A stretch of DNA of 64,000 nt from Rhodobacter sp. (lineage in GTDB: Bacteria > Pseudomonadota > Alphaproteobacteria > Rhodobacterales > Rhodobacteraceae). The position numbers and the translations under genes are program-made. The DNA lies in contig JADCDI010000031.1 of the NCBI GenBank assembly GCA_020251025.1, positions 1 to 64,000 on the forward strand, written 5' to 3'. Numbering within the stretch: position 1 is the first letter of the stretch; every line of letters starts with the position of its first letter. Below, piece after piece: positions 26,439-43,541 of the stretch. The notes under the pieces were generated by a model. That model was not told where the DNA came from. It was given only the letters and a program-made list of their open reading frames with translations, and made no database searches.

Positions 26439-27185
26439 TTACCCCGGAACAAAGAGTGCCCGGCGCAGGAATTTCTGGGTTTCTTCCATCTGTGGCGAAT
26501 CGAAGATCTGGCCGGGCGGGCCCTTCTCGATCAACTGGCCCTCATGCAGGAAGGCCACGGTTGTGGCCACGTCCCGGGCAAAACGCATCTCGTGTGTGGC
26601 CAGCAGCATCGTCATGCCCGACTTTGCAAGGTCCTTGAGGATATCCAGCACTTCGCCCACCAGTTCGGGGTCAAGCGCCGAGGTGACCTCGTCCAGAAGC
26701 AGAACTTGCGGGTCCATCGCCATGCAGCGGATGATCGCCACGCGCTGTTGCTGGCCGCCCGACAACTGGTCAGGCATATAGCCGGCGCGTTCGGACAGGC
26801 CGATCCGGTCCAGCAGTTTCAGCGCCCGTTCGCGGGCTTCGTCGCGGCTCAGTCCGTTGACCTTGACGGGGGCCAGCATGACATTCTCGATCACGCTCAG
26901 ATGCGGAAACAGGTTGAAGCTTTGGAACACCATGCCGACCTTGCGGCGCAGGCGGTTCACGTCCACCCCGATGCCCGACACCGGGTCGCCGTCCAGCGCG
27001 ATCACGCCGCTGTCGATCCTCTCCAGCGCGTTGACGCAGCGCAGAAGCGTCGACTTGCCGGAACCCGAGGCGCCGATCAGGCAGACCACCTCGTGGCGGT
27101 TGACCGAAAGGTCGATGCCTTTCAGCACCTTGTGCGCGCCGTAAGACTTTTCCAGGGCGGTGATGGTCAGAAATGCATCGGCCAT
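26439..27185 (-). CDS. Amino-acid ABC transporter ATP-binding protein
   Basis: A 248-residue ATPase of the GlnQ/HisP (polar amino acid) class. Walker A is 'LIGASGSGKSTLLRC', the signature 'LSGGQQQRVAIIRCM', Walker B 'VLLLDEVTSALDPEL', switch 'LATHEMRFARDVA'. Length is normal. The ATG at 27185 is one base from the permease stop. It energises the importer formed with the permease and binding protein upstream. Position beside two KstD-like dehydrogenases suggests the cargo is their substrate or a precursor. Confidence 0.92.
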   Translation of the reverse strand: MADAFLTITALEKSYGAHKVLKGIDLSVNRHEVVCLIGASGSGKSTLLRCVNALERIDSGVIALDGDPVSGIGVDVNRLRRKVGMVFQSFNLFPHLSVIENVMLAPVKVNGLSRDEARERALKLLDRIGLSERAGYMPDQLSGGQQQRVAIIRCMAMDPQVLLLDEVTSALDPELVGEVLDILKDLAKSGMTMLLATHEMRFARDVATTVAFLHEGQLIEKGPPGQIFDSPQMEETQKFLRRALFVPG

Positions 27186-27186
27186 G

Positions 27187-28293
27187 TCAGCGGATCGCGT
27201 TGCGTTTCTGCCGGTCGATCAGATAGTCGACAAAGCGGGTCTGCGGGATGGTGATGACGAAAAAGAACAGCCCCACCACAGACACCGGCGACAGGTTGAA
27301 GAAGTTCGCGGCAAAGTATTTCGCCTGCCCGAAAATGTCGGAAAGCCCCAGGATCAGCACAAGCGCGGTATCCTTCTGCAAGGCCACGAAGAACCCGAGC
27401 AAGGGCGGGATAACCCGGCGAAACGCCTGCGGCACCACGACATAGGCATAGGCCTGCACCGCCGTCAGGCCCAGCGACCGCGCGGCGGCGATCTGGCTGG
27501 GGTGGATGCTGTCGATGGCCGAGCGGAACAATTCCGTCACATAGGCGCTGAAACTCAGGCTGAGCGCCAGCACCGCATACCACATGCCGTCCCAGCCGCT
27601 GACAAAGCCGATCTTGGTCAGGGGAAGGCCGAAACCGATCAGGTAGATCACGATGATCGTGGGAACGGCGCGGAAGAAATCGACATAGGCGATGACCATC
27701 CAGCGGATCGGCCGCCCCGCCGCCCCCGGGATCATCCGGAGAAGCGCCAGCGCCAGGCTCAGCACGAGGATGATGACGCTTGCGGCAAGGGTGATGTAAA
27801 GGTTCAGCTTCGCAGCCGCCAGCACCATGGGTGCGCTTTGCACCATATAGCCGGGGTTGAGGAAGGCCCGCTGCACCGCAAAGTTGTTTGTGGTCAGAAA
27901 GACATAGAACGCCACAATCACCAGCAGCGTCGCGCCAAAGCCGATGCCGCTCAGCCCCTGCTGGCGGCAGGCCCAGGCGGGCAGGCGCGCGGCGACCAGA
28001 TCGCCCCTGGCAACCAGCCCGTCGGCCCGGCGCAGGTGCCCCAGGGCGCGGACCGGAAAGATCATCAGCAGGGCTGCAAGGCCGGTTCCGCCGATGGCAA
28101 TCCCGCGCAGCCAGCGCGACAGGCCGGGGTTATCGGCAGTGAAGGACAGCGCATGGCTGAGGCCAAGCCAGGTCAGGCCAATGGTGATCAGGCCGGTGAC
28201 GGCCGACAGGTAGGCGATCGCGTGGTAGCTGACCGGCGCAGAGACCGGGCCCGCAGCACGGGCGTGCGTCGTGGCTGCCGTGGCGTTGCTCAT
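27187..28293 (-). CDS. Amino-acid ABC transporter permease with N-terminal extension
   Basis: A 368-residue inner-membrane permease of the His/Glu/Gln/Arg opine class. The conserved domain occupies about residues 160-360, with 'NLYITLAASVIILVLSLAL', 'VDFFRAVPTIIVIYLI', and the EAA loop 'IAAARSLGLTAVQAYAYVVV'. Most single-domain permeases of this class have about 220-250 residues. This one has about 130 extra at the N-terminus, with three further hydrophobic stretches (for example 'AIAYLSAVTGLITIGLTWLG'). It is the only permease gene of the system, so it probably acts as a homodimer. Confidence 0.9.
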   Translation of the reverse strand: MSNATAATTHARAAGPVSAPVSYHAIAYLSAVTGLITIGLTWLGLSHALSFTADNPGLSRWLRGIAIGGTGLAALLMIFPVRALGHLRRADGLVARGDLVAARLPAWACRQQGLSGIGFGATLLVIVAFYVFLTTNNFAVQRAFLNPGYMVQSAPMVLAAAKLNLYITLAASVIILVLSLALALLRMIPGAAGRPIRWMVIAYVDFFRAVPTIIVIYLIGFGLPLTKIGFVSGWDGMWYAVLALSLSFSAYVTELFRSAIDSIHPSQIAAARSLGLTAVQAYAYVVVPQAFRRVIPPLLGFFVALQKDTALVLILGLSDIFGQAKYFAANFFNLSPVSVVGLFFFVITIPQTRFVDYLIDRQKRNAIR

Positions 28294-28371: not shown

Positions 28372-29220
28372 CTACTTGTCCCAATAGGGGATTGTCGCCG
28401 GGTCCACCCCCCAAAGCGGGGCATACCAGGTGGCGACCAGTTGATCGATGGTCCCGTCGGCCTTCATCGCCCCGATCGCGGCATCAAAGCCTGCCTTGGC
28501 CTGCGAACCCTTGACCAGCACGCCGCCGACATTGCCGCCGACATCATACTGCCCGATCACCGTCAGCGCCCCGTTCGAGGCGGTGGCGGCGGGCAGTACC
28601 CCCGACAGGTCGAACAGGACGGCATCGATCTGCCCGGCGCTGAGGGCGGTGAACATGTCGGCGGTCGCCTCGAACCGGCGCACCTCGCCCGTGGGCTTCA
28701 GCGTCTGGTCAAGGAACCGGTCCTGCACGGATGCCAGGAATACGCCCAGACGCTTTTCCCCCAGATTGTCCCTGGTGATTGTCGCCGCGTCTTCCGAACG
28801 GACCATGACGCCGCTGGTTGCCACAAAGTAGGGGGCCGTGAAATCGACGTTCTGCAGGCGTTCCTCGGTGATGAAGATGTTGGTCATCGCGGTGTCAAAG
28901 CCCGAAAGCTGGCCTGCGATCAGGGCGGGCCAGGGCACATTCTGCACGGTCACCGACTTCAGTCCCGCACGATGCGCAATTTCGGCCGCCAGGCAGTATT
29001 CGAAACCGCCGGTGATGGTTTCGGGCGAATTGCCCTTGAAGCTGTCGGGCGCGGGCAGGATCGCGGCCACGGTCAGGGTGCCTTCGGTCACGGTCGGGAT
29101 CTGGATCGAGCCCGCCGTGCCCGTCACCTTGCACTCGCCGAAACCTTCGGCCAGCGCGGGCACGGACAGCCCGAACAGCGCCAGCCCGGCTGCGGTGGCC
29201 AGTCTTGTCATCATCGTCAT
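28372..29220 (-). CDS. Amino-acid ABC transporter substrate-binding protein (SBP family 3)
   Basis: A 282-residue periplasmic receptor. The start at 29220 gives 'MTMMTRLATAAGLALFGLSV' and a signal-peptide cut after 'PALA', and GGGAGAGTAACC precedes it. The frame continues far upstream without a plausible start. Domain marks of SBP_bac_3 include 'GGFEYCLAAEIAHRAGLKSV', 'WPALIAGQLSGFDTAMTNIF', 'VDFTAPYFVATSGVMVRS', and 'IDAVLFDLSG'. The Arg that clamps the alpha-carboxylate of amino acids ('YxxxR' region) is not obvious to me, so the ligand could be another small polar molecule. It is 55 bp downstream of the first KstD-like gene and may share its transcript. Confidence 0.9.
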   Translation of the reverse strand: MTMMTRLATAAGLALFGLSVPALAEGFGECKVTGTAGSIQIPTVTEGTLTVAAILPAPDSFKGNSPETITGGFEYCLAAEIAHRAGLKSVTVQNVPWPALIAGQLSGFDTAMTNIFITEERLQNVDFTAPYFVATSGVMVRSEDAATITRDNLGEKRLGVFLASVQDRFLDQTLKPTGEVRRFEATADMFTALSAGQIDAVLFDLSGVLPAATASNGALTVIGQYDVGGNVGGVLVKGSQAKAGFDAAIGAMKADGTIDQLVATWYAPLWGVDPATIPYWDK

Positions 29221-29275: not shown

Positions 29276-31015
29276 TCATGCCGATCTGGCAGACCGCGTG
29301 AAGGTCCTGTCCCCCTGCGCGGCCCCGCCTTGCGACATGTGTTCTTCGGCCATGGCGCGTGCGGCAAGCCAGGCGAAGGTGATCGCGGGACCAAGAGTGA
29401 TGCCCGCCGCCGGATAGCTGCCCCCCGCGACGGATTCGGCATCCGCCCCCAGGGCGTAAAGCCCCGGAATGGGCCGCCCCGCGACATCCAGAACGGCACC
29501 GGTGGCGTCGGTATCAAGGCCAAGGAATGTGGACAGATTGCCCGGATGAATGCGGATGGCGTTGAACGGCCCCTTGACCAAAGGGGCCATGGTCGGATTG
29601 GGCGTGCAGGCCGCATCACCCGCTGCCCGGTCAAAGGCGGAAGCCCCGCGCTGAAAATCCTTATCGACGCCCGCCCCCGCCATGGTGTTGAAGCGCTCGA
29701 CCGTGCGGGTCAGGGCGGCAGGGTCGATGCCTGTGGCCCTTGCAAGGTCGGCAAGCGTGCGCCCCCTGAACAGATAGCCGCAGCGCAGGTGCGGCCCCAG
29801 GGGTGCGGGGAAGGGGCCGACCCGGCCAAGGCCATAGCGGCGCAGGGCACGGTCGTCGGCAATCAGCCAGCCCTCGGCGGCACCGCTTGCGATCAGGGCG
29901 CGGCAGAAGTCGTGGTAGTTCGCCGCCTCGTTCGCGAAACGCTGGCCGTTCGGCAGGACGGCGATGATCCCCGGCTTGGCCTTGTCACCGAAATGCGGCA
30001 CGTGCCACACGGTGTCGCCCCTTTGCCGGCGCGATACGGCGGTCCAGGCTGCGGGGTCCGATGTCTTGCCCCGCACCCTGCCCCCCACCCGCCGCGCAAG
30101 GGTCAGACCATCGCCCGCCACCTCGCCGGGCGGCAGGGCAAAATGGCTGCCGCCTGCGGCCAGATGCGGATACAGTTGCCGCTGGCGCAGCGGGTCGTGC
30201 GAGAATCCGCCTGTGGCAAGCACGACGCCGCGCGTGGCGTTGATCTGGATCACCCCGCCGGGCAAGGTCACCTTTGCCCCGCACACCCGCCCCGTCCCGA
30301 CCACAAGGTCGGTCAGTGTGGCGCAACACCAGATCTGCACGCCCCGGGCGCGCAGGGCCGCCATGAAGCGCGCCACCATGGCGTTGCCCATCGTCGTCCG
30401 CGCCCCGCGATGCAGGCCGCCAAGCCGCTGCAGCCCATGCGAAACCAGCAGACGCAGGACATGAAGCATCGAGCGGGGCGAACGGGCCATCGCCTGAAGG
30501 TGCCCGATATCCTCGCGCGCCACCGACAGCCCGCCAAAGATCTGCCCGGCAAGCAGCGGATCGCGCAGCCGGCGGAAATCCGGCCCCAGACCGCGCCCGT
30601 CGAAAGGGACCGTCCGCAGCGTGCGCCCGCCCTTGTGCGCACCGGGCAGGCTGTCGAAGTAGTCGGGCGCATCTGCCATCAGTTCAACCTGCATCGCACC
30701 TTTTGCCACGTAATAGTCAAGCGCGGCGGCGGCCTGGCTGACATAGGCGGCGATCCGGGCAGGGTCGGCGCGACCGTCGGCGGCCGCTGTCAGATAGCGC
30801 AGGGCATCCTCATGCCGGTCGGCTATCCCCGCCTTCGCCTGCGGGCTGTTGCAGGGCACCCAGACCTCGCCCCCCGACCAGGCGGTGGTGCCGCCGATCG
30901 TCGCGGCCTTTTCGATCACGATCACATCAAGGCCCATGTCGCGTGCCGCAAAGGCGCAGGCAAGGCCCGCCGCCCCGCTTCCCGCCACCAGCACATCGCA
31001 GGACAGCGGTTCCAT
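29276..31015 (-). CDS. KstD-like FAD-dependent dehydrogenase, copy 1
   Basis: A 579-residue flavoprotein of the fumarate reductase/3-ketosteroid-1-dehydrogenase superfamily. The FAD motif 'DVLVAGSGAAGLACAFAARD' is followed by 'IGGTTAWSGGEVWVPCN', which matches the KstD fingerprint GGTTAxSGGxxWxPxN. It has 'VLATGGFSHDPLRQRQLYP' and, near the C-terminus, 'AGGSYPAAGITLGPAITFAW', again KstD-like. The segment 'FANEAANYHDF' is where KstD enzymes have their catalytic Tyr. Such enzymes remove two hydrogens beside a ring ketone. It overlaps the EthD-like gene by one base (TGATG). No steroid genes are near, so a smaller cyclic ketone is more likely. Paralogue at 33039. Confidence 0.85.
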   Translation of the reverse strand: MEPLSCDVLVAGSGAAGLACAFAARDMGLDVIVIEKAATIGGTTAWSGGEVWVPCNSPQAKAGIADRHEDALRYLTAAADGRADPARIAAYVSQAAAALDYYVAKGAMQVELMADAPDYFDSLPGAHKGGRTLRTVPFDGRGLGPDFRRLRDPLLAGQIFGGLSVAREDIGHLQAMARSPRSMLHVLRLLVSHGLQRLGGLHRGARTTMGNAMVARFMAALRARGVQIWCCATLTDLVVGTGRVCGAKVTLPGGVIQINATRGVVLATGGFSHDPLRQRQLYPHLAAGGSHFALPPGEVAGDGLTLARRVGGRVRGKTSDPAAWTAVSRRQRGDTVWHVPHFGDKAKPGIIAVLPNGQRFANEAANYHDFCRALIASGAAEGWLIADDRALRRYGLGRVGPFPAPLGPHLRCGYLFRGRTLADLARATGIDPAALTRTVERFNTMAGAGVDKDFQRGASAFDRAAGDAACTPNPTMAPLVKGPFNAIRIHPGNLSTFLGLDTDATGAVLDVAGRPIPGLYALGADAESVAGGSYPAAGITLGPAITFAWLAARAMAEEHMSQGGAAQGDRTFTRSARSA

Positions 31016-31371
31016 CAGGGGGCCTTGGGTGCGGGAAGGATGACGTGTTCCTCGACGATGATCCGTTCGAACCGGCTCACATGGGCCAGCACATCGGCGC
31101 GGCCCTCGGGGGCCGAGGGCAGGGTCAGGGCCGCGCGGGCCGCCTCAACCGAGTGAAACACCTCTTCGGCCAGCCCGTCCCATTCCGATGCAACCCCGGT
31201 TCCGGCGGGCAGAAGGCTGTCATCCTCTACCGCCAGATTGACCGAATAATAGGCCAGGTAGCTGCCCTGACGCCCGGCGATATACGGCGCGTGGCGGTTC
31301 AGCCACCAGTCGGCGAAGGCCTGCCGCGACAGCCCCTCTGCCCGCTTCAGCAGCCAGAACACCTTTACCAC
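31015..31371 (-). CDS. EthD-like small protein, copy 1
   Basis: A protein of about 118 residues with the ferredoxin-like EthD/dimeric alpha-beta barrel pattern. 'FADWWLNRHAPYIAG' corresponds to the conserved Trp/His helix of EthD proteins. I chose GTG 31371 over ATG 31380 because it sits about 9 nt from GGAAGG and aligns exactly with the start of its paralogue at 35519 (VVKVFWLLKR against MIKVMWFLRR). EthD-type proteins act as small enzymes or helpers in catabolic operons, and their reactions are mostly unknown. It is first in the leftward arm, behind a strong promoter, with the KstD-like gene in TGATG overlap. Confidence 0.8.
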   Translation of the reverse strand: MVKVFWLLKRAEGLSRQAFADWWLNRHAPYIAGRQGSYLAYYSVNLAVEDDSLLPAGTGVASEWDGLAEEVFHSVEAARAALTLPSAPEGRADVLAHVSRFERIIVEEHVILPAPKAP

Positions 31372-31431
31372 AAGGCACATCCTTCCCCGTCACCGGGCCA
31401 GGGGAAAAACCCGCAGGCCCCGGTATGTGAT

Positions 31432-31448
31432 TAATATATTTTTAATAT
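31432..31448. promoter_or_regulatory. Paired TTAATAT repeats, candidate GntR operator
   Basis: Two direct copies of TTAATAT (31432-31438 and 31442-31448) lie exactly 10 bp apart on one face of the helix, in an otherwise GC-rich genome. They overlap the -10 element of the leftward promoter and lie 80 bp ahead of the GntR gene. A regulator bound here would block the EthD/KstD arm and could autoregulate. Confidence 0.45.
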
Positions 31449-31462
31449 CCAAAACGTGTCAA
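31434..31462 (-). promoter_or_regulatory. Sigma70-type promoter for the leftward EthD-KstD arm
   Basis: On the minus strand TTGACA (31462-31457) is followed by a 17-bp spacer and TATATT (31439-31434). This is a near-consensus sigma70 promoter, rare in such GC-rich DNA. Transcription would begin near 31427, leaving a leader of about 55 nt before the EthD-like start. Confidence 0.7.
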
Positions 31463-31525
31463 GTCTGGATCAATGCGGAACGGAATGCTAGACAGACCCG
31501 GACAGCGCTGACCGAGGCACAGCAC

Positions 31526-32278
31526 ATGGCGAAAGCCGCAATCAAACCGACAGCCGAAATCCCGGGCCGCAGGCGACGCACAAGGGGGATGGGTGCGGAA
31601 GAGGTCTACCGCAAGCTCAAGACCCAGATCATCCGGATGGAACTGGCCCCCGGCACCGTGATCGATGACGTGGCGCTGGGCGCGCAGCTTGGCGTGTCGC
31701 GCCAGCCGGTCCGCGAGGCAATCATCCGCCTGTCTGGCGAAGGGCTGGTCGAATCGAACCGCAACCGGTCCAGCATTGTCGCCAGTTTCGACATCTCGGC
31801 CTTGCGCGATTTTCTGGAAAGCATCTCGTTGCTTTACCGCCTTACCGCGCGGCTTGCCGCGATCAACCGGCGGGCCGAACATCTGGCGCGGATCGCCGAG
31901 ATCGGTCGCGCACATTCGGCGGCAATCGCGATGGATGATGTGGATGCCGTGGTCGAGGCCAACCGGCAGTTTCATCTTGCGGTAGCCGAGGCGGCGGGCA
32001 ATGCGATTTACCTGACCTGGGTGCGCAACCTGCTTGATCATGGCGAACGGATCCTGCGGCTTTACCTGCGCCAGTACGACAATCATGTGATCGACCCCGC
32101 GATGGAGGGACACCGCGCCATGGTCGAGGCGATCGTGGCGCAGAACCCCGATGCCGCCGAGGCGGCGGGCGCGCTGGATGCCCGGATCATCGCCGAAGGC
32201 CTGTCGAAGTTCTTCCTGCGCCGGGGCGCGCCGGATTTCGCGCTGGCACCGCCCGCCGAAGCGGCGGCATCGCGATGA
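31526..32278 (+). CDS. GntR family regulator, FCD (FadR-like) subfamily
   Basis: A 250-residue DNA-binding regulator. The winged helix spans about 25-90, with the recognition helix 'LGVSRQPVREAIIRLSGEGL'. The all-helical FCD ligand domain follows (about 100-230) and has the metal/ligand His residues in 'ANRQFHLAVAEAAGN' and 'EGHRAMVEAI'. FCD regulators usually sense carboxylates and repress until induced. The frame is open from 31427, but ATG 31526 behind GAGG gives a normal basic leader. It is divergent to EthD copy 1 and overlaps the following SDR gene by ATGA, so it is co-expressed with the rightward arm and probably controls both. Confidence 0.92.
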   Translation: MAKAAIKPTAEIPGRRRRTRGMGAEEVYRKLKTQIIRMELAPGTVIDDVALGAQLGVSRQPVREAIIRLSGEGLVESNRNRSSIVASFDISALRDFLESISLLYRLTARLAAINRRAEHLARIAEIGRAHSAAIAMDDVDAVVEANRQFHLAVAEAAGNAIYLTWVRNLLDHGERILRLYLRQYDNHVIDPAMEGHRAMVEAIVAQNPDAAEAAGALDARIIAEGLSKFFLRRGAPDFALAPPAEAAASR

Positions 32279-33006
32279 GACAGGTTCTGATCACCGGCGG
32301 CGGGGGCGGCATCGGCGCTGCGCTGTCGGCCGGGTTCGCGGCACTTGGGGATCATGTGATCGTGCTGGACCGTGACGGCGCGGCTGCACGGGCCGTTGCC
32401 GCGCGCCTTGCCGGCGACGGGGGCTCTGCCGAGGCGGTGACCTGTGACCTGACGGACGAAGCGCAGACGGCCCGGATGCTGGCGGGTTTGGGCAAGGGGC
32501 TGGACGTGCTGATCAACAATGCCGGGATCGAGGCAAGGGCCGTCTCCGGTTCGGCCGGTTTCGGGGCTGACTGGCGGCGCGTCATGGCGGTCAACCTTGA
32601 TGGCGCGGCCTATCTGTCGCAGGCCGCCCTGCCGCTGCTGGAACGGGCGCAGGGCTGCATCATCAACATCGCCTCGATCCAGTCCTATGCGGTGCTGCAC
32701 ACCGCAAACACCGTCTACACCGTCAGCAAGGCCGCCCTTGCGCAGTTGACCCGGGCGATGGCGGTGGAATACGCGCCGCGCGGCGTGCGGGTGAACGCGA
32801 TTGCGCCCGGCGTTGTGGAAACGCCGATGATCCGGCAGGCCGGACAGCAGGCAGACCGCTTCAGGCTGTTCCTTGACCGGATTCCGATGAAACGCTTTGC
32901 CCTTGCGGAAGAGATTTTCGGCCCCGCGCAGTTCCTTGCCTCGTCGGGCGCGGCCTATGTCACAGGGATCATCCTGCCGGTGGACGGAGGCTTTCTTGCC
33001 ATGTAG
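32275..33006 (+). CDS. Short-chain dehydrogenase/reductase, copy 1 of the island
   Basis: A 243-residue classical SDR. The NAD(P) motif is 'ITGGGGGIGAAL', then 'VLINNAGIEARA' (NNAG), the catalytic Ser in 'IINIASIQSYAVL', and Tyr/Lys in 'VYTVSKAALAQL'. The acidic 'VLDRDG' after beta-2 suggests NAD over NADP. It would oxidise a secondary alcohol to a ketone or the reverse. It is coupled to the GntR gene (ATGA) and 32 bp from the second KstD-like gene. An SDR that makes a ring ketone next to a KstD-like desaturase is a coherent pair. Confidence 0.9.
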   Translation: MRQVLITGGGGGIGAALSAGFAALGDHVIVLDRDGAAARAVAARLAGDGGSAEAVTCDLTDEAQTARMLAGLGKGLDVLINNAGIEARAVSGSAGFGADWRRVMAVNLDGAAYLSQAALPLLERAQGCIINIASIQSYAVLHTANTVYTVSKAALAQLTRAMAVEYAPRGVRVNAIAPGVVETPMIRQAGQQADRFRLFLDRIPMKRFALAEEIFGPAQFLASSGAAYVTGIILPVDGGFLAM

Positions 33007-33038
33007 CGGGCCGAAGCCTTTGCGACGGACGACGTGCC

Positions 33039-34763
33039 GTGTCGGGTGACCGGCCGGATCAGGCGCTGTGTGATCTGGTCGTCATCGGTTCGGGTGCGGC
33101 GGGTCTGACGGCGGCTCTTCTGGCGCTGGACCGGGGGTGTTCGGTCATCCTTCTGGAAGCGGACGGATGGCTGGGCGGTGCAACTGCGCTGTCCGAAGGG
33201 ATGATCTGGGTGCCGAACAATCCCGAGGCGGCACAACTGGCCGATGCGCCCGACCGGCAGGCAGAGGCCGATGCCGCGGTTGCCTACCTTCTGGCAAATT
33301 CCGGGAACCGCGTCGATGCGGCCCGGCTGCGGTCCTTTGTTGATGCCGCCCCGCAGGCGCTGGATTTCCTGACCGCCCGGGCGGGGGTGCGGTTCGCGCT
33401 GAACCGGGGGTCGCGCGACTACTACCCGGAAATGCCCGGCGCAACCCTGGGTCGGCGCGCCCTGAACCCGCTGCCGTTCGATGCGCGCGGAATGGAAAAG
33501 GGGCTCTTCGCCCGCATCCGCCCGCCGCTGGGCACAATGATGCTGTTCGGCGGCCTGAGCATCGCAAGTCAGGACATGGCCGACTACACCCGCGTCCTGC
33601 GCAGTCCCGGGGCTGCGTTGCGGGTCGCGGGGCATGGCTTGCGTTATCTGGCGGACCGGCTGCGGGGTTGGCCGCGGGGCACGCGGCTGGCCAACGGCAA
33701 TGCCATCGTGGCCCGGCTGGCCGATGCCGTGGCCCGGTCGGGGGGACAGATCAGAACGCACTGGCCGGTGGCGCAGATCGGGTACGACAACGGCCGGGTT
33801 GTGGGGGTTTGCGGCCCGAAGGGCAAGGTTGCGGCGCGTCTGGGCGTGATCCTGGCCAGTGGCGGATTGAATGCCAGCCATGCGGCACGACGCCAGCTGC
33901 TCGGCCCATCGCCGCATGTCGCGATCCCTGCCGGGCCAGAGACCCCGGACCTTGCCGCCCTGACCCGGAGCACGGGGGCGCAGATCGTGACGGCGGTGTC
34001 GCAGCCCGTTCTGTGGGCACCCTGCTCGGTGGTGCCGCCGGGTCTGGCCCGCGCCGGTGCCTGGCCCCACTTTGGCGACCGCGCCAAGCCGGGGGTGATC
34101 TGCCTTGGCCCGGACGGACGGCGCTTCACCAACGAGGCGCAGGTCTATCATGATTTCGTGCCCGCGATGATTGCGGCCACGGCGCACCACCCCGAGGGGC
34201 CGCATTGCTGGATCGCCGCCGACCATGCGGCGATCCGGCGCTATGGGCTTGGCCCCATCGGCCCGTCACCGGTCCGGCTGGGCCCCTACATCCGGGCGGG
34301 CTATCTGCGGCGGGGAAAAACCCCGGCCGATCTGGCCCGCAACACCGGCTTGCCGCCCGAAGCGGTCGCCGCCAGCATTGCGCGGTTCAACGCAGCGGCC
34401 CGGCAGGGCGTTGACCCCGATTTCGGGCGGGGGACAAGCGCCTATGACCGGGGCAATGGCGATCCGCTGCACCGGCCCAACCCGGCGCTGGGCGCGCTGG
34501 AACGGGGGCCGTTCTATGCCATAAGGATGACGCCGGGGGATATCGGAACCTTCATCGGCCTTGCAACGGATGATGCCGCCCGGGTTCTGGATGCACAGGG
34601 CCGGCCGGTTCCGGGCCTGTGGGCGGCGGGCAATGCCGCCACACCGATCACCGGGGGCAGCTATCCTGCCGCCGGGTTGACCATCGGGTCGGCGATGATC
34701 TTTGGCTATCTTGCAGCCTGCGATGCCACTGCCGGCATCCGTCGGCAAAGTGCCGCGCAATGA
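33039..34763 (+). CDS. KstD-like FAD-dependent dehydrogenase, copy 2
   Basis: A 574-residue flavoprotein, paralogous to the product of 29276-31015. The FAD motif is 'DLVVIGSGAAGLTAALLALD'. The next block, 'LGGATALSEGMIWVPNN', is a looser form of the KstD fingerprint (SGG became SEG). 'RFTNEAQVYHDF' retains the Tyr and 'GGSYPAAGLTIGSAMIFGY' the C-terminal FAD contact. It starts with GTG, and no better start is in the frame. The changes from copy 1 suggest a different position or substrate. Its stop overlaps the next SDR start (ATGA). Steroid activity is not implied. Confidence 0.85.
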   Translation: MSGDRPDQALCDLVVIGSGAAGLTAALLALDRGCSVILLEADGWLGGATALSEGMIWVPNNPEAAQLADAPDRQAEADAAVAYLLANSGNRVDAARLRSFVDAAPQALDFLTARAGVRFALNRGSRDYYPEMPGATLGRRALNPLPFDARGMEKGLFARIRPPLGTMMLFGGLSIASQDMADYTRVLRSPGAALRVAGHGLRYLADRLRGWPRGTRLANGNAIVARLADAVARSGGQIRTHWPVAQIGYDNGRVVGVCGPKGKVAARLGVILASGGLNASHAARRQLLGPSPHVAIPAGPETPDLAALTRSTGAQIVTAVSQPVLWAPCSVVPPGLARAGAWPHFGDRAKPGVICLGPDGRRFTNEAQVYHDFVPAMIAATAHHPEGPHCWIAADHAAIRRYGLGPIGPSPVRLGPYIRAGYLRRGKTPADLARNTGLPPEAVAASIARFNAAARQGVDPDFGRGTSAYDRGNGDPLHRPNPALGALERGPFYAIRMTPGDIGTFIGLATDDAARVLDAQGRPVPGLWAAGNAATPITGGSYPAAGLTIGSAMIFGYLAACDATAGIRRQSAAQ

Positions 34764-35491
34764 CCGTGCCGGCCGGTTTCGCGCCCGATCTGTTCCAGGG
34801 CCAGGCGGTGCTCATCACCGGAGCCGCCGGGGGCATCGGGCGCGCGGTGGCCCGGGCCTTTGCCGCCTGCGGCGCGCGGATCTGGGCGCTGGACCTTGCC
34901 GGGGCGCTGGACCCCGGGCTTCCCGGCCGGCAGATCGCTTGCGATCTGTCCGACCGCGCGGCGCTTGGCGAAGCCGCCGGAACCATCTGCGCCGCCGGTC
35001 CGCTGGCCGCGCTGGTCAACTGCGCCGGAGTGTTCCGCAGGGTGGCGATGACTGACCCGCAGGCGGTGGAGGAATGGGACCGCACCCTTGCCGTCAACCT
35101 GGCCGCACCCTTCCTGCTGGGCCGTGCGCTGGTGCCCGTGCTCGGGGGCGGCGCGGTCGTCAATGTCACCTCGGTGCGGGCCGGAACCGCCAGCACGCGG
35201 GCCTCGGCCTATACGGTGTCAAAGGGGGGGCTGGCGGCGCTGACGCTTGCGATGGCCGACGAGTTCGCGCCCCTGGGCATCCGCGCCAATGCCGTGGCAC
35301 CGGGCGATGTCGATACGGCCATGGGCAAGGACGACCCTGCAATCATCGCCAAACTGCTGGAGCGTACCCCGATGCGCCGCCTTGCCACCCCCGCCGAGGT
35401 TGCCGCCGCCTGCGTCTTTCTTGCGTCACCCCTTGCGTCCTGTATCACGGGTGCCACCTTGCGCGTCGATGGGGGTTTTCTTGCTGTCTGA
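34760..35491 (+). CDS. Short-chain dehydrogenase/reductase, copy 2 of the island
   Basis: A 243-residue SDR. It has 'ITGAAGGIGRAVARAF', 'ALVNCAGVFRRVAM' (NNAG-like, here NCAG), 'VVNVTSVRAG' for Ser, and 'AYTVSKGGLAALTLAM' for Tyr/Lys. 'WALDLAG' after beta-2 favours NAD. The end 'CITGATLRVDGGFLAV' is classic. ATG 34760 overlaps the upstream stop, which fixes the start although the frame is open earlier. It shares the message with both neighbours. Confidence 0.9.
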   Translation: MTVPAGFAPDLFQGQAVLITGAAGGIGRAVARAFAACGARIWALDLAGALDPGLPGRQIACDLSDRAALGEAAGTICAAGPLAALVNCAGVFRRVAMTDPQAVEEWDRTLAVNLAAPFLLGRALVPVLGGGAVVNVTSVRAGTASTRASAYTVSKGGLAALTLAMADEFAPLGIRANAVAPGDVDTAMGKDDPAIIAKLLERTPMRRLATPAEVAAACVFLASPLASCITGATLRVDGGFLAV

Positions 35492-35518
35492 TCCCTGCCC
35501 CAAAACCGGAGGATGCGA

Positions 35519-35857
35519 ATGATCAAGGTCATGTGGTTTCTGCGACGCGCGCCGCACCTGTCGCGGGCCGAGTTTGCCGACTGGTGGCTGAACCGCCATG
35601 CCAAAGACATCGCCGCCGATCAGGCCCCCTATCTGCGCCGCTATGTGATCGATGTGGCGGTCGAAGATGACAGCGGCCTTGCCGGAAAACCTGCCGGCAC
35701 ACCGGAATGGGACGGCATCGCCGAACAGTGGTTCGCCACCGAAGCCGATTACAACGCCGTCTATGGCCGCGCCGACCGCCCGACCCGCGCCGATACGCTG
35801 GCCCATACCTCGGCCTTTCAGCGTCTGGTGGTGCGCGAATATGAACAGCCTTTGTGA
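35519..35857 (+). CDS. EthD-like small protein, copy 2
   Basis: A 112-residue paralogue of the product of 31015-31371. The central 'EFADWWLNRHAKDIAA' and 'EWDGIAEQWF' align with 'AFADWWLNRHAPYIAG' and 'EWDGLAEEVF' of copy 1. GGAGG lies 6 nt before ATG 35519, so the ATG at 35513, which overlaps the Shine-Dalgarno sequence, is rejected. Probably dimeric by analogy with EthD folds. The invariant Trp-Trp-Leu-Asn-Arg-His in both copies may mark the active site. Reaction unknown. Confidence 0.8.
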   Translation: MIKVMWFLRRAPHLSRAEFADWWLNRHAKDIAADQAPYLRRYVIDVAVEDDSGLAGKPAGTPEWDGIAEQWFATEADYNAVYGRADRPTRADTLAHTSAFQRLVVREYEQPL

Positions 35858-35867
35858 CGTGTGACAT

Positions 35868-36614
35868 ATGCGGTTCACGGGCCAAAAGGTTCTGATCGTC
35901 GGCGGGGCATCGGGCCTTGGGGCCGCCGCTGCGCGCGCCTTTGCCGGCGAAGGGGCTGACCTTGTGCTGGTTGACCGCGACGGTGCGGCGGCAGAACGGG
36001 TGGCGGCGGGGCTTTCGCGCGCGCGGGCCGTACAGGGCGATGCGGCAGACCCCGCGACGGCGGCGGCCGCCCTTGCGCTGGCCGCGCCGGACATCCTGTT
36101 TCATGCGGCCGGGATCGACCCGGCTTCGGCCGCAGATGTGCCGGGCACCAGTCTGGCCGACTGGCAGGCGATCCTTTCGGTCAACCTGACGTCGGCTTTC
36201 CTGTTCGCCCGGGCCGTCCTGCCGGGGATGATCGCGCAGCGGCGGGGCTGCCTTTTGTTCACCGGCTCGATCGCCGGGATCAGGCCAACACCGCAGGAGG
36301 CCGCCTATGCCGTGTCGAAGGCCGGGGTGATTCAGCTTGCCCGCGCCATCGCGCTGGATCACGCCCGCGACGGTATCCGCGCCAATGCGCTGTGCCCGGG
36401 GTTTCTGGAGGCGGTGATGGCAGATCGCCGCGCGGCCATGACGGCGGCCGATCTGGCCGAACGGTCGCGGCTGGCCAGAGCAAGGGTGCCGATGGGGCGC
36501 GAAGGGGGCTATGCAGAGACGGCGCAACTGGTGCTTTCGCTGTGTGATGATGCGGTGTCGGGCTATGTCACCGGGCAGGCGGTGGTGGCGGACGGCGGGG
36601 TCTTGCTGGCCTGA
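35868..36614 (+). CDS. Short-chain dehydrogenase/reductase, copy 3 of the island
   Basis: A 248-residue SDR. It has 'IVGGASGLGAAAARAFAG', 'VLVDRDGAAAERV' (Asp favours NAD), 'ILFHAAGIDPASA' in place of NNAG, 'LLFTGSIAGIRPTP' for Ser, and 'AAYAVSKAGVIQLARAI' for Tyr/Lys. It is the last gene of the rightward arm, 10 bp after EthD copy 2. A hairpin follows its stop. Three SDRs in one arm imply successive or stereospecific alcohol/ketone steps. Confidence 0.9.
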   Translation: MRFTGQKVLIVGGASGLGAAAARAFAGEGADLVLVDRDGAAAERVAAGLSRARAVQGDAADPATAAAALALAAPDILFHAAGIDPASAADVPGTSLADWQAILSVNLTSAFLFARAVLPGMIAQRRGCLLFTGSIAGIRPTPQEAAYAVSKAGVIQLARAIALDHARDGIRANALCPGFLEAVMADRRAAMTAADLAERSRLARARVPMGREGGYAETAQLVLSLCDDAVSGYVTGQAVVADGGVLLA

Positions 36615-36753: not shown

Positions 36754-37512
36754 TCAGGTGTAGATCAGGGGCGCCTTTTTCAGCAGCGGCCACTGGTCTG
36801 GCGCATGTCCGTAGATGACGAAAGCCCCGGTCTGCGCGGCCAGCGCCATAAGGCGCGCGGCGCTGTGCCGGGCAAGGACGGGGTCGTCGGCGGTGGCGAA
36901 CCCTTCCCCGATCTCGGCCGGGCGCGAGATGGCATCGCCGGTGATCAGCACCGGCCCGGTTTCGGGCAGGTCAACCAGAAGGGCAAGCTGGCCCGGCACA
37001 TGCCCGGGCACCGCAAGCAGCCGCAGGCCCGGTGCAAGGGTGACGTCTTCGGTGACGGTGACATAGGTTCGGTCGGGCCAGTCCATCGGGCGGGTCTTGC
37101 CGAAATACAGCGGGCGCGGTTCGTCCCGCTCTGCCCTGGCAAGCAGGATCGGCGCGCGGGGAAAACCGGCAATGCCGCCGACATGGTCGATGTGGCTGTG
37201 GGTCAGGATCAACAGATCAACGGCCTGCGGGGTCAGGCCCAGAAGCGAAAGCTGGTGGGGCGGAAGGTGGGTTTCGGTCAGCGTCAGAACCCGTCCGAAC
37301 CGGCCCAGTCCGTCGGCGGCGCTGGCCCCGGCCGCATCGCGCGCATAGGCTTCGGGAAAGCCGGTATCGACAAGGATGATCTCATCCCGGTCCGTCCGGA
37401 TCAGAAATCCCGCGATGCCGATGATGCGACCGTTGTCATGGACCTGAAACAGACCGTAATCCAGTACGGCAAGACTGGCCGGCCTGCCCTTGATAAGCTC
37501 TTGCGCCCGCAT
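36754..37512 (-). CDS. Metallo-beta-lactamase-fold hydrolase
   Basis: A 252-residue MBL-fold protein with the zinc motif 'LILTHSHIDHVGGIAGFP' (HxHxDH) near residue 105, a third His in 'AVPGHVPGQLALLVD', the bridging Asp in 'VLITGDAISRP', and the last His in 'IYGHAPDQWP'. The arrangement is that of the AHL-lactonase/hydroxyacylglutathione-hydrolase-like group. A lactone or thioester made by the neighbouring oxidoreductases is a plausible substrate, since lactone opening often follows ketone oxidation. It converges on SDR copy 3 and may not share its regulation. Substrate not readable. Confidence 0.85.
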   Translation of the reverse strand: MRAQELIKGRPASLAVLDYGLFQVHDNGRIIGIAGFLIRTDRDEIILVDTGFPEAYARDAAGASAADGLGRFGRVLTLTETHLPPHQLSLLGLTPQAVDLLILTHSHIDHVGGIAGFPRAPILLARAERDEPRPLYFGKTRPMDWPDRTYVTVTEDVTLAPGLRLLAVPGHVPGQLALLVDLPETGPVLITGDAISRPAEIGEGFATADDPVLARHSAARLMALAAQTGAFVIYGHAPDQWPLLKKAPLIYT

Positions 37513-37729
37513 CCCCGCCCCCGCCCTTGCCGGCGCCTTCCCCCGTGAAGGTCAGGACCCGCGCCCTGTTTCAGTATCCGCCCGACATCACCGGTACACA
37601 ACCCGGGGCGACCACCGGCTTCCTGCCGCCGCGCGCGCCGCGCCCCGGTGACGTCATGGCAGGGCTGGACCCGGACCTGCCGCTGGACCGGAACCGGCCG
37701 CCGTTCCGGGGCCTGCACGCGCGGCGGTG
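37513..37729. other. Short gap ahead of the aminotransferase relic
   Basis: No gene recognised. A plus-strand frame from 37527 is open but Pro/Arg-rich and without family resemblance. It could hold the decayed N-terminal part of the aminotransferase whose middle follows. Confidence 0.4.
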
Positions 37730-38275
37730 ATCCGGCAGGCGGGAAGGATCTGTACGCCGGATGATGGGCTGATCACGGCAGGCACGGCAGAGGCAAACCG
37801 TCCGGCGATCCGCCAAACGGTCCGGTCAAGGGACGGGGTTGACATATGAACCCCCGGCCGGCCGCAGGCGGCGGTGCTGGCGCAGGCGCTTGGGGCAAAC
37901 CTGCGCCCGGTTGAAAGGCGCAGGGATCAGGGTCGGCGTCTGCCGCCGGATGCGCCGGACGCGGCCATGACAGGGCGCATGCGGCTGATCTTCCTGTCAC
38001 ACCACAACAACCCGGCCGGGCCGGTCCTGACGGCACAGGAACTGGCGCAGGTTGCAGCGATTGCGGCACGGGCGGGTGCCTGGCTTGCGGTGGACAAGGT
38101 CTGTGCCGGTCTGGAATGGGACGGGGCGCGCGCACCCCCGATTGCGGGGATATGCGGGCGGGGCATCAGCACGGGCAGCGTCCCCAAGGTGCCGGGGCTG
38201 CGGACGGGATGGATGTTCCGCCGCGATCCCGGCCTGATCGGGGATGCGATGATCTTGCGCAAAAACTCATTTAAT
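37730..38275 (+). pseudogene. Class I aminotransferase relic
   Basis: One plus-strand frame reads like the middle of a class I/II PLP aminotransferase: 'GLITAGTAEANRPAIRQTV', an in-frame TGA at 37847, 'QAAVLAQALGANLRP', 'LIFLSHHNNPAGPVLTAQEL' (NNPxG motif), 'AWLAVDKVCAGLEWDG' (the PLP Asp is in place but the usual Glu-Val-Tyr is lost) and 'RGISTGSVPKVPGLRTGWM', where the Schiff-base SxSK has become SVPK with the Lys retained. It ends abruptly near 'DAMILRKN'. The N- and C-terminal parts are missing. Internal stop, missing ends and lost Tyr mean it is dead. Confidence 0.8.
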
Positions 38276-38358
38276 ATCATGATTTTTCCGGGCGCAGTTA
38301 ACCCATCACATTCACTGCGGCCTGCCCGGCCTGGCCTGGCGCTGAACCTTGAGCGCCG

Positions 38359-38510
38359 CGAAGGCGGGGCGGGTGCCGGTCGGGGGCTTCGGGCTTCCGG
38401 CAGGCAGGGGGCAGCGTGGCGCTGTGGCAGGGGCCATCGCCCCTGCCAGGATGCGCAGGGCGCGCGGGGCGCAAAAGCTTCCCGCTTTTCGATCCGGCAG
38501 CCCATGCGGA
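38359..38510. repeat. Dispersed intergenic repeat, copy B
   Basis: This segment matches 112-266 over most of its length, with point changes. It has a perfect 9-bp hairpin: 38426-38434 pairs with 38439-38447 (GGCAGGGGC/GCCCCTGCC, loop CATC). The first hairpin, perfect in copy A, is worn here. It lies between the aminotransferase relic and the export operon. Alignment by eye only. Confidence 0.6.
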
Positions 38511-38696
38511 GGGGACTTCCCGGGCACCCTGCCCGGGCACCCTGCCCCGTCACCCTGACTGAACGGGTCGCGTTGGCCCGGCTGATATGTCGTGAACCGG
38601 TGCAGCGCCTTGACCGAGGGGGGCGGGCACTGGCATTGTTGCGGACACTGCTGGAAAGCGTGTCCGCACCGGTGCCTTGCGGACCAAGGAGATAGC

Positions 38697-39686
38697 GTGA
38701 AACCCCGAATTCTTGCGATCCTCACTGCGGCCTTGCTCATTGCCGCGATTGCCGCCTGGGCGTGGTTTTCCGGCTGGTTCGGTGGCGAGACGCTGGCGGG
38801 TTTCGCCAGGTCGAACGGTCGGATCGAGGTCGAGCGCATCGACATCGCCTCGAAGTATGACGGTCGCATCGCCTCCATTCTTGTGAACGAGGGCGACCCC
38901 GTGACAGCCGGCATGGTCGTTGCCCGGATGGACACGAACGAGATCGAAGCCCGGCTTGAAGAGGCCAAGGCGCTGGCCCGGCAAGCGGCGCAGGCTGTCC
39001 GCCGCGCCGAGGCGGAAGTGGCACAGCGGGTGGCGGACGCCCGCCTTGCCGAGGTCGAACTCACGCGCGCGCGCGCGCTTGAAAGCCGCGAAGCGGGCAC
39101 CGTCGCCGATGTCGACCGGCGCACCGCACAGCGCGACGTCGCGGTCGCCGCCGTCGATTCGGCGAGGGCCGCCGTCGGCGATGCCGAAGCGGCAAGGGAG
39201 GCGGCCGAGGCACGCGTCGCCGCGCTCGGGGTGACGATCGCCGAAATGACACTGGTCTCGCCGGTTTCGGGCCGGGTCGAATACCGGCTTGGCCAGCCGG
39301 GAACGGTGATCGGCGCGGGTGACAGGGTCGTGACCGTGCTCGACCTGTCCGACGTGCACATGACCGTATTCCTTCCGACCGCCGAGGCCGGGGCGCTCGC
39401 GATTGGCGCAGACGCACGCATCGTGCTCGACGCCGCGCCGGGCTATGTCTTTCCTGCCACCGTCGCTTTCGTCGCGTCAGAGGCCCAGTTCACCCCGAAG
39501 ACGGTCGAGACGAGCGATGAGCGTCAGAAGCTTGTCTATCGTGTCAAGCTCACTGCCGATCCGAAGCTTCTTGCGACCTATCGCGACCAGATCAAGGCCG
39601 GATTGACGGGCGACGCATGGGTCCAGCTTGATCCAGCCGCAGCCTGGCCAGAGACGCTTGCCGTGAGGCTGCCGGATGCCCCTTGA
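38697..39686 (+). CDS. yhiI: HlyD-family membrane fusion/adaptor protein (YhiI-like)
   Basis: A 329-residue periplasmic adaptor anchored by one N-terminal helix ('ILAILTAALLIAAIAAWAWF'). A lipoyl-like half precedes a long Ala/Glu/Arg coiled coil (about 90-185), and the second half begins 'MTLVSPVSGRVEYRLGQPG'. It starts with GTG at 38697 behind AAGGAGAT, and the earlier open frame has no such signal. The set HlyD protein, double-ATPase/permease fusion, and second permease is the E. coli yhiI-rbbA-yhhJ arrangement. The coding end overlaps rbbA by 11 bp. Confidence 0.9.
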   Translation: MKPRILAILTAALLIAAIAAWAWFSGWFGGETLAGFARSNGRIEVERIDIASKYDGRIASILVNEGDPVTAGMVVARMDTNEIEARLEEAKALARQAAQAVRRAEAEVAQRVADARLAEVELTRARALESREAGTVADVDRRTAQRDVAVAAVDSARAAVGDAEAAREAAEARVAALGVTIAEMTLVSPVSGRVEYRLGQPGTVIGAGDRVVTVLDLSDVHMTVFLPTAEAGALAIGADARIVLDAAPGYVFPATVAFVASEAQFTPKTVETSDERQKLVYRVKLTADPKLLATYRDQIKAGLTGDAWVQLDPAAAWPETLAVRLPDAP

Positions 39687-42414: not shown

Positions 42415-42416
42415 GC

Positions 42417-43541
42417 ATGCGCTGGCTCCGCAATGTGTGGTATCTTGGCCGCAAAGAGATCGCCAGTCTCGGGCGCGATACCGTGCTGTTGCTGTTCCTC
42501 GTCTATTCCTTCTCCTTTACCGTGTATTCCGAGGCGACGGGCGTCGATATCGAGGTGCGCGACGCCAGCATCGCCATCGTCGACGGCGACCATTCGACGC
42601 TTTCACGCTCGATCAGCGCGGCGCTGCGGCCGCCCTGGTTTCGCCCGCCGGTGTTGATCGACCGCGCTGATCTCGACCAGGCGATGGATTCGGGCCGTTT
42701 CAGCTTCGCGCTGGAGATTCCGCCCGGCTTTGAGGCAGACCTGCTGCGCGGTCTTCGGCCGGAATTGCGGCTTGATGTCGACGCAACCGCCATGGCGCAG
42801 GCCGGGATCGGCGATTCCTACATCCAGCGCATCGTACTTGAAGAGGTGTTCGCCTTTCTGAAAAGCCGCGGCATCGAGGCCGATCTGCCGATCAGGATCG
42901 TCGCCCGCGCCTGGTTCAACCCGAATCTCAAAAGCGTCTGGCAGAATTCGCTGATGTCGGTGATCGAGCAGATCACGCTTATGTCGATTCTGCTTGTCGG
43001 GGCCGCCGTCATCCGCGAGCGCGAGCATGGCACGATCGAGCATCTTCTGGTGATGCCGGTGCGCGCCTCTGAAATCGCCATGGCCAAGGTCGCGGCGAAC
43101 GGGCTGGTGGTGCTCGTCGCCACCGCGCTGTCGCTTTTGATTATGGTGCGCGGCGTGCTGGCGGTGCCGGTCACCGGGTCGGTGCCGCTGTTCCTGCTTG
43201 GCGTGCTGCTTTATCTTTTCGCCATGAATTCGCTGGGTATCCTGCTTGCGACGATCGCCAATTCGATGCCGCAATTCGGACTGCTCGCGACACCGGTGTT
43301 TCTGGTGCTGATCATGCTTTCCGGTGCGAACTCGCCGCTTGAATCGATGCCGGCGCAACTGCGATTGGCGATACAGGGCTCGCCCACCGTGCATTTCGTC
43401 GAGATCACAAGCGCCGTCCTGTTTCGCGGTGCCGGGATCGGTGTGGTCTGGCCGCAATTCCTGGCGCTTGCGGCTTTCGGCACAGTCGCGTTCGTGGTGG
43501 CGCTTGCCCGTTTCCGCGGCATGCTGGCACGGCAGGGCTGA
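42417..43541 (+). CDS. yhhJ: ABC-2 type permease (YhhJ-like)
   Basis: A 374-residue inner-membrane permease. One N-terminal span ('DTVLLLFLVYSFSFTVYS') is followed by a periplasmic domain and five spans, including 'NSLMSVIEQITLMSILLVGA' and 'GLVVLVATALSLLIMV', with the cytoplasmic 'REREHGTIEHLLVMPVR' loop typical of ABC-2 permeases. The first ATG after the rbbA stop is 42417, two bases on, with AGGAGCGG just before. It pairs with the permease half of RbbA to complete the pore. Confidence 0.92.
   Translation: MRWLRNVWYLGRKEIASLGRDTVLLLFLVYSFSFTVYSEATGVDIEVRDASIAIVDGDHSTLSRSISAALRPPWFRPPVLIDRADLDQAMDSGRFSFALEIPPGFEADLLRGLRPELRLDVDATAMAQAGIGDSYIQRIVLEEVFAFLKSRGIEADLPIRIVARAWFNPNLKSVWQNSLMSVIEQITLMSILLVGAAVIREREHGTIEHLLVMPVRASEIAMAKVAANGLVVLVATALSLLIMVRGVLAVPVTGSVPLFLLGVLLYLFAMNSLGILLATIANSMPQFGLLATPVFLVLIMLSGANSPLESMPAQLRLAIQGSPTVHFVEITSAVLFRGAGIGVVWPQFLALAAFGTVAFVVALARFRGMLARQG

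Follow-up and report, generated by a model that had tools for sequence, protein, structure and literature searches.

A rare gene cluster in the analysed stretch of Rhodobacter sp. DNA (64,000 nucleotides, hereafter the window) is best read as a catabolic island; it contains two paralogous pairs of old descent, each made up of a flavoprotein and an EthD-domain protein. The pairs, FAD1-EthD1 and FAD2-EthD2, diverge from one GntR regulator in two operons, which also include an ABC transporter of the amino-acid type alongside three SDRs (Table 1). The two flavoproteins share 44% identity over 564 columns (E=1e-126) and the two EthD proteins 51% (E=3e-33), with WWLNRHA in both, confirming the relatedness of the copies proposed in the initial annotation, in which the coordinates and reading frames of these genes are correct. 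A recent tandem duplication was rejected, because the copies are 44-51% identical while orthologues in other orders reach 55-90%. Searches of the literature on ChcC1, on EthD with flavoproteins and on tetrahydrotyrosine catabolism found no description of the cluster.

Gene content and layout

Table 1. Genes of the module and its borders
Feature	Position	Strand	Evidence
ABC transporter ATPase	26439..27185	-	PF00005
ABC transporter permease	27187..28293	-	PF00528
Substrate-binding protein, amino-acid-type (PAAT) ABC transporter	28372..29220	-	PF00497
FAD1, KstD/ChcC-like flavoprotein dehydrogenase, SGG type	29276..31015	-	PF00890, 252 bits
EthD1, EthD-domain dimeric alpha+beta barrel protein	31015..31380	-	PF07110, 35.7 bits
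GntR/FCD-family regulator, between the two operons	31427..32278	+	PF00392 and PF07729
SDR1 dehydrogenase	32275..33006	+	PF13561; YxxxK and GxxxGxG motifs
FAD2, KstD/ChcC-like flavoprotein dehydrogenase, SEG type	33039..34763	+	PF00890, 242 bits
SDR2 dehydrogenase, between FAD2 and EthD2	34760..35491	+	PF13561
EthD2	35513..35857	+	PF07110, 30.9 bits (cut-off 22)
SDR3 dehydrogenase, beside EthD2	35868..36614	+	PF13561
Metallo-beta-lactamase-fold hydrolase, lactonase-like	36754..37512	-	PF00753; convergent with SDR3
Class I/II PLP aminotransferase-fold gene, decayed fragment	37545..38347	+	Intact in sister genome (L036)

The start of the regulator gene may lie at 31526. The pairs had been described as a two-gene module placed on both sides of one regulator. 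The pairing of FAD and EthD genes holds, but the unit is larger, since SDR2 separates FAD2 from EthD2, and EthD2 abuts SDR3. Similarly, the left and right placement around the GntR gene is real in the window but absent from L037 and from all single-pair relatives. The two-sided arrangement was discarded as a functional design: the two pairs of L037 share a strand, and other relatives have a single pair.

The module genes are under purifying selection, with dN/dS of 0.02-0.25 relative to the sister species in all genes where it was computable. The aminotransferase-fold fragment has a frame change and an in-frame stop, and its DNA identity is about 83%, versus mostly 95-98% for the module. Membership of the metallo-beta-lactamase-fold hydrolase in the pathway is uncertain; it scores 95.6 bits against the AiiA model, under the cut-off of 375. 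The transporter is of the PAAT amino acid type and its substrate-binding protein has a predicted alpha-amino-acid site, in which the characteristic Arg and Asp are kept (EERLQNVDF and VLFD, aligned with AncQR, 4zv1). No further close FAD homologue was found in the source genome.

Descent and distribution of the two pairs

The FAD and EthD trees suggested with the original description were run and their topologies are compatible. All flavoproteins paired with EthD1/2-type proteins fall inside one 19-row clade (98/96), which also includes four that have no EthD or one of a different type, and the pair-type EthD proteins form one clade (98/98) apart from all other EthDs. Further pairs occur in two other genomes, G514 (L141) and G785 (L200). 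In both the FAD tree (98/94) and the EthD tree (87/64), the G785 pair groups with pair 1. The G514 EthD groups with EthD2 (94/90) and its flavoprotein carries SEG, although the latter shows no grouping with FAD2 in the careful FAD tree.

Of the old duplication of a pair that had been proposed, the old paralogy and the co-evolution of the partners stand, while the sister relationship of FAD1 and FAD2 is weakly supported and falls short of being established: once the G785 pair is added, FAD1/FAD3 and FAD2 are sisters at 76/80. A history without duplication of the pair, in which EthD alone was duplicated and the two flavoproteins, members of one family, were each recruited independently, appears rather unlikely. 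An earlier quick tree did part FAD1 from FAD2 by flavoproteins without such an EthD (SH-aLRT 94 and 81), but a clade uniting FAD1 and FAD2 survives AU testing (p 0.39 and 0.24), and the sister grouping obtained with the G785 pair leaves the two trees compatible.

Among relatives, the two old pair types each occur without the other. EthD1 accompanies and abuts FAD1 in 4/4 genomes carrying it (the window, L036, L037 and L038). FAD2 is found with nearly all EthD2 carriers (the window, L036, L037 and L040-L046), the identity of EthD2 across relatives being 77-90%; an exception is L039, where EthD2-SDR3 is kept and FAD2 is absent. SDR2 adjoins FAD2 in relatives as well. G784 has pair 1 and lacks pair 2. 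Searches of plasmids revealed no close relatives, with a best match of 44.5% for FAD2 and one weak match for EthD2.

The proposed link between EthD and the flavoprotein is borne out at a larger scale, since an EthD gene lies within about 10 kb of 7 of the 32 genes of this FAD family, where 0.2 would be expected (P ~2e-9). That EthD proteins partner mainly with the SDRs is, by comparison, unlikely: EthD2 lies directly beside SDR3 in the window and in L036, L037 and L039, the last without FAD2, and in G514 an SDR follows EthD, but EthD1 adjoins FAD1 in all four of its loci and EthD genes are over-represented around the flavoprotein family as a whole.

Flavoprotein and EthD families

Both flavoproteins belong to the Pfam family FAD_binding_2 and resemble 3-ketosteroid delta1-dehydrogenases (KstD; R. 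erythropolis KstD1, AcmB) in full-length alignment, FAD1 and FAD2 matching AcmB (PDB 7p18) at E=4.6e-89 and E=3.8e-70. Equivalents of KstD Tyr318, Tyr487 and Gly491, whose roles have been described (PMC5348764), are intact in both and invariant in 84/84 homologues. The two flavoproteins differ from KstD at the Tyr119 equivalent, which is Phe in FAD1 and Glu in two FAD1 orthologues, and in FAD2 is variable, Tyr in the window copy and Asn in two orthologues. The change from SGG to SEG in FAD2 had been read as an altered KstD fingerprint. The difference is real, but it marks a clade and tracks the type of EthD: SEG is present in all 9 FAD2 proteins and in the G514 flavoprotein (10/10 of the EthD2 type) and in 0/70 others. 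Decay of the FAD2 fingerprint was rejected, as the E is invariant across the clade.

All NCBIfam equivalogs lie under their cut-offs for the module proteins. The nearest models to FAD1 are PRK06134, PRK12843, ChcC2 and KstD. FAD1 and FAD2 reach 374 and 373 bits for KstD (NF005882, cut-off 788), 429 and 404 for ChcC2 (cut-off 900), and 304 and 266 for ChcC1 (cut-off 1000). ChcC1 and ChcC2 (NF053676, NF053677) are 4-oxocyclohexanecarboxylate desaturases; both are flavoproteins from one family, and in two steps they convert a 4-oxocyclohexane ring to an aromatic one. They also have SDR partners, and ChcB models match the module SDRs, whereas an amino-acid-type transporter sets the module apart. 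Since the ChcC1 and ChcC2 models match both flavoproteins, albeit under cut-off, they offer a precedent for two-step ring aromatisation. To our knowledge, ChcC has no EthD partner.

EthD proteins are a family of mostly unknown function. Both copies exceed the Pfam gathering cut-off, and the AlphaFold2 monomer model of EthD1 (pLDDT 89.9) aligns to chains of EthD proteins and methylisomerases at a probability of 1.00, in the fold of a dimeric alpha+beta barrel, its dimerisation being predicted. The nearest solved folds are methylmuconolactone methylisomerase, CTB10 and EthD proteins, a neighbourhood of isomerases, lyases and cyclases. The closest, 4-methylmuconolactone methylisomerase (3hf5, 3hds, 3hfk; E ~1e-7), is a lactone isomerase of aromatic ortho-cleavage with 18-22% identity. 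A functional precedent is Hsh3, an EthD-domain 7beta-hydroxysteroid dehydratase acting on a 3-keto-delta4 steroid in bile-salt degradation (PMC12175502). By description, it resembles the module EthDs in its dimeric alpha/beta barrel and, as predicted for them, acts on an enone, in a pathway that includes hydroxysteroid and ketosteroid dehydrogenases. It differs in its near mirror symmetry (eight helices, nine strands; PMC12175502), which makes a two-lobed structure probable, and in the class of substrate expected. Together with the EthD-FAD linkage, this precedent suggests that EthD could generally provide the elimination or isomerisation that goes with ring desaturation by KstD-like enzymes.

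Candidate pathways

Our tentative reading, which may hold, is that the module re-aromatises an imported ring-reduced cyclic amino acid towards tyrosine or 4-hydroxyphenylpyruvate, the substrate being a prediction. Such a tyrosine-related compound is suggested by the amino-acid-type transporter and by the HPPD/HmgA genes that adjoin several relatives. The imported amino acid would carry a hydroxyl group on its ring, an SDR would oxidise this alcohol to a ring ketone, the KstD/ChcC-type flavoprotein would remove two hydrogens next to the ketone, and EthD might act on the enone by a linked elimination or tautomerisation, as in Hsh3. Two rounds, one per pair, would aromatise the ring, leading towards tyrosine or 4-hydroxyphenylpyruvate as input to the homogentisate route. 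The duplication might have provided one pair per desaturation step, or one per substrate.

HPPD, MaiA, HmgA or FAH genes occur in L037, L040, L041 and L044, HPPD/HmgA adjoin half of the FAD2 loci, and in Tabrizicola TH137, where HPPD is present in two copies and HmgA in three, one set adjoins the module. Against the tyrosine model, the HPPD and HmgA of the source genome are on another contig, and both are absent from the 97%-complete assembly of the sister genome G298. HmgA is also close to two further FAD homologues, and after related loci are collapsed the association amounts to about two independent cases (P 0.03). The sub-cut-off equivalogs and the KstD Tyr119 position, Phe/Glu in FAD1 and Tyr/Asn in FAD2, also count against the model. 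Moreover, L039, with EthD2-SDR3 and no FAD2, and G784, with pair 1 alone, indicate that strict two-step cooperation is not needed everywhere.

A separate pathway for each pair, serving two substrates or stereoisomers under one regulator, is conceivable and nearest to the specialisation originally envisaged. It agrees with L040-L046, where pair 2 stands alone and has a transporter and a regulator to itself, and with G784, but both pairs share a single regulator and a single transporter in L037 and in the window, which fits one substrate. Somewhat less in keeping with the data is a non-amino-acid alicyclic substrate (steroid, terpenoid, quinate-like or cyclohexane carboxylate), for which the transporter and tyrosine genes would be incidental; we consider it improbable. 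The flavoprotein family is broad (KstD, ChcC, PRK06134), Hsh3 acts on steroids, and some homologues lie near HPPD/QuiC-like proteins of 29-35% identity (L080, L081 and others), matches that were not counted as tyrosine genes. However, the substrate-binding protein retains the amino-acid-site Arg and Asp, single-pair relatives have a different amino-acid-type transporter within the operon, and no steroid degradation genes were seen among those identified around the module or its relatives.

If the tyrosine reading is true, the module would represent an aerobic route re-aromatising ring-reduced tyrosine analogues and possibly a missing step in cyanobacterial peptide breakdown. Degradation by the module of tyrosine relatives without an aromatic ring from cyanobacterial peptides, chiefly the aeruginosin residue Choi (2-carboxy-6-hydroxyoctahydroindole), is very doubtful, and Choi is a speculative candidate substrate. 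The SDR would make the 6-ketone, EthD would expel the ring nitrogen by beta-amino ketone elimination, and the flavoprotein would aromatise the resulting cyclohexenone to tyrosine. Isolate names allow the guess that the MAGs are of lake or cyanobacterial origin, for which PMC8477515 gave no confirmation. The case for Choi is circumstantial: it is an amino acid resembling proline, with prephenate as its presumed precursor (PMC10143770), cyanopeptides are degraded by a Microcystis-associated community dominated by alphaproteobacteria (PMC4905998), and two loci carry suggestive neighbours. In L039, SDR-EthD2-SDR3 is co-operonic with a prolyl aminopeptidase above the curated cut-off; a candidate X-Pro dipeptidyl-peptidase there was weakened, the protein being a CocE/NonD family hydrolase. 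The L141 cluster contains a ureohydrolase-family gene, for which PF00491 and a weak HutG match do not establish an agmatinase, and an amino-acid-oxidase-like flavoprotein.

Two paralogous pairs around one regulator

Two divergent operons flank a GntR/FCD regulator at 26.4-37.5 kb of the window. The left operon contains EthD1, FAD1 (a flavoprotein) and then an amino-acid-type ABC transporter (substrate-binding protein, permease, ATPase); the right operon contains, in order, GntR, SDR1, FAD2, SDR2, EthD2 and SDR3, the latter convergent with a lactonase-like hydrolase gene. FAD1 and FAD2 are 44% identical from end to end, and EthD1 and EthD2 51%, confirming the paralogous FAD-EthD pairs that the initial annotation placed around one regulator. 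However, its two-gene unit is found on the left only, the right pair being split by SDR2. The SDRs are only 32-38% identical to each other, hence there is no sign that they arose from the same duplication, and no further close FAD homologue was found in the window genome. Every gene with a computable dN/dS (window versus sister species) is under purifying selection. Known families are combined here in a new way, and the role that this suggests for EthD is testable.

The SGG and SEG variants of the KstD (3-ketosteroid delta1-dehydrogenase) fingerprint, reported for copies 1 and 2 respectively, were borne out. FAD1 and its orthologues carry G at position 2; the nine FAD2 proteins and the FAD of genome G514 all carry E. 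Among 70 other homologues the residue is G in 56, A in 10 and S in 3, with a gap in the rest. The FAD of genome G785 is SGG, and from this distribution the marker tracks the EthD type. The catalytic positions Tyr318, Tyr487 and Gly491 of KstD, whose roles have been described (PMC5348764), are invariant, and Tyr119 is not kept.

Coordinates of the features discussed
Feature	Sequence	Position	Strand
FAD1	window	29276-31015	-
EthD1	window	31015-31380	-
FAD2	window	33039-34763	+
EthD2	window	35513-35857	+
Decayed class I/II PLP-enzyme gene	window	37545-38347	+
HlyD-like protein and ABC exporter genes (~5.5 kb)	window	38371-43931	
Intact PLP-enzyme gene	L036	2704-3828	
Inverted gene copy	L178	2924-4072	+
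Inverted gene copy	L179	6261-7418	-
Two-domain EthD-EthD	L068	2237-2965	
Two-domain EthD-EthD	L071	14821-15510	
Two-domain EthD-EthD	L074	2824-3708	
Two-domain EthD-EthD	L083	9208-9900	
Short EthD-like protein and StyA	L132 (G300)	5887-7432	

Distribution and history of the pairs

With EthD1 and EthD2 as queries, 84,980 named genomes yielded 15 loci, which were compared gene by gene. The EthD1/2 type is rare, occurring in 1 of 394 genomes of the family (the window's) and 2 of 385 of the class, the window's counted. The sister-species locus (L036, Rhodobacter MAG) has an identical layout at 93-99% identity. An Aestuariivirga MAG (L037) lacks the lactonase-like gene and carries the other genes of the window's module at 55-79% identity, arranged as EthD1-FAD1-transporter-FAD2-SDR2-EthD2-SDR3 on one strand and GntR-SDR1 on the other. 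L038 has EthD1-FAD1, and pair 2 is absent from its genome. Loci L040-L046 (Tabrizicola, Yoonia, Aestuariivirga, Pseudorhodobacter, Rhizobium and unplaced MAGs; the L045 stretch begins inside FAD2) read FAD2-SDR2-[transporter genes]-EthD2-ATPase-SDR3-GntR, with a transporter and regulator different from the window's, and pair 1 was not found within the compared stretch. L039 (G785) has EthD2-SDR3 without FAD2; elsewhere in that genome an EthD gene and a FAD gene diverge from each other at the end of a contig (L200), as a separate pair. A further pair, in G514, consists of FAD-SDR2-like-oxidase diverging from EthD-SDR-ureohydrolase.

EthD1, EthD2 and the G514 and G785 EthDs form a single clade (98/98), separate from all other sampled EthDs, in which G785 stands beside EthD1 (87/64) and G514 beside EthD2 (94/90). 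Every paired FAD falls inside one 19-row clade (98/96), which also takes in four FADs with EthD absent or of another type. G785 joins pair 1 here too, its FAD being sister to FAD1 (98/94). The G514 FAD lies outside the FAD2 group in the careful tree, but a grouping with FAD2 is not rejected by the AU test (p 0.26), and the SEG marker is common to both. FAD1/FAD3 is sister to FAD2 at 76/80; FAD1 and FAD2 were apart in an earlier, larger tree made without the G785 pair, and AU tests do not reject a joint clade. Hence, the pair histories are compatible and partly matching, and a single, old pair duplication, as first suggested, is plausible, not proven. The interpretation is supported in part and refined.

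EthD and its flavoprotein

In 45 other genomes, nearly all fully assembled and selected for carrying a FAD homologue, 7 of 32 EthD genes lie within ~10 kb of one, versus 0.2 expected. The P-value (~2e-9; 2e-7 at doubled FAD density) is indicative only, because of this selection, counting by eye from tables and an estimated FAD density. This agrees with the proposal that EthD works with its flavoprotein. Inside the module the constant neighbour of EthD2 is SDR3, so EthD may have its place between the step of the SDR and that of the flavoprotein.

Both FADs resemble the ring desaturases KstD and ChcC (4-oxocyclohexanecarboxylate desaturase). Dehydration of a 7beta-hydroxy 3-keto-delta4 steroid has been demonstrated for Hsh3, an EthD-domain protein of Sphingobium (PMC12175502), and the nearest folds to the EthD1 structure model (pLDDT 89.9) are those of 4-methylmuconolactone methylisomerase, CTB10 and further isomerases or lyases. 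Together these support a scheme in which SDR would oxidize a ring alcohol, FAD would desaturate and EthD would catalyze elimination or tautomerisation, probably in the order SDR, FAD, EthD. The invariant EthD residues include H30, Y45, W67, D68 and E72.

Two-domain EthD-EthD genes occur at four loci, three of them (L068, L071, L074) with a KstD-like flavoprotein gene ~5 kb away; that of L071 is also near HmgA/FAH. In G300, a short EthD-like protein adjoins the styrene monooxygenase gene StyA, which scores over its cut-off; a flavoprotein homologue lies 2.3 kb away.

Substrate and neighbouring DNA

In the substrate-binding protein, both the Arg and the Asp of the amino-acid site are conserved. 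The module in L037, L040, L041 and L044 has HPPD, MaiA, HmgA or FAH genes next to it, on differing sides; those compared with curated cut-offs exceed them. Of the three HmgA and two HPPD copies in Tabrizicola TH137, one set adjoins the module. Tyrosine genes are near four of eight adequately covered FAD2 loci versus 2 of 53 other FAD loci (P 0.002; 0.03 with related loci collapsed). However, HPPD/HmgA are on another contig in the window genome and were not found in the sister genome, hence a tyrosine-related product is reasonable but unproven. Choi (2-carboxy-6-hydroxyoctahydroindole) or tetrahydrotyrosine of cyanobacterial peptides is an improbable candidate substrate, considered for two reasons: Choi is an amino acid resembling proline, with prephenate as its presumed precursor (PMC10143770), and in L039 a prolyl aminopeptidase is joined to SDR-EthD2-SDR3. 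Elsewhere (L080, L081, L093-L097, L100), flavoprotein homologues lie ~6-8 kb from HPPD/QuiC-like proteins (29-35% identity), perhaps in a different alicyclic-acid pathway.

Transposase genes lie close to the TH137 module and inverted copies of a single gene bracket it, consistent with spread via mobile elements. These copies (383-386 aa; L178, L179) enclose the module, extra tyrosine-degradation genes and transposase genes, one Tn3-type, possibly as a composite mobile element. Beside the window module, the PLP-enzyme gene is decayed (frame change, in-frame stop, 3′ end lost), with ~83% DNA identity to the intact sister copy versus mostly 95-98% for the adjoining module; among families, the intact copy matches GntC and VioD best, both below cut-off. 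The exporter segment that follows is without counterpart at that place in L036, where the flanking genes adjoin.
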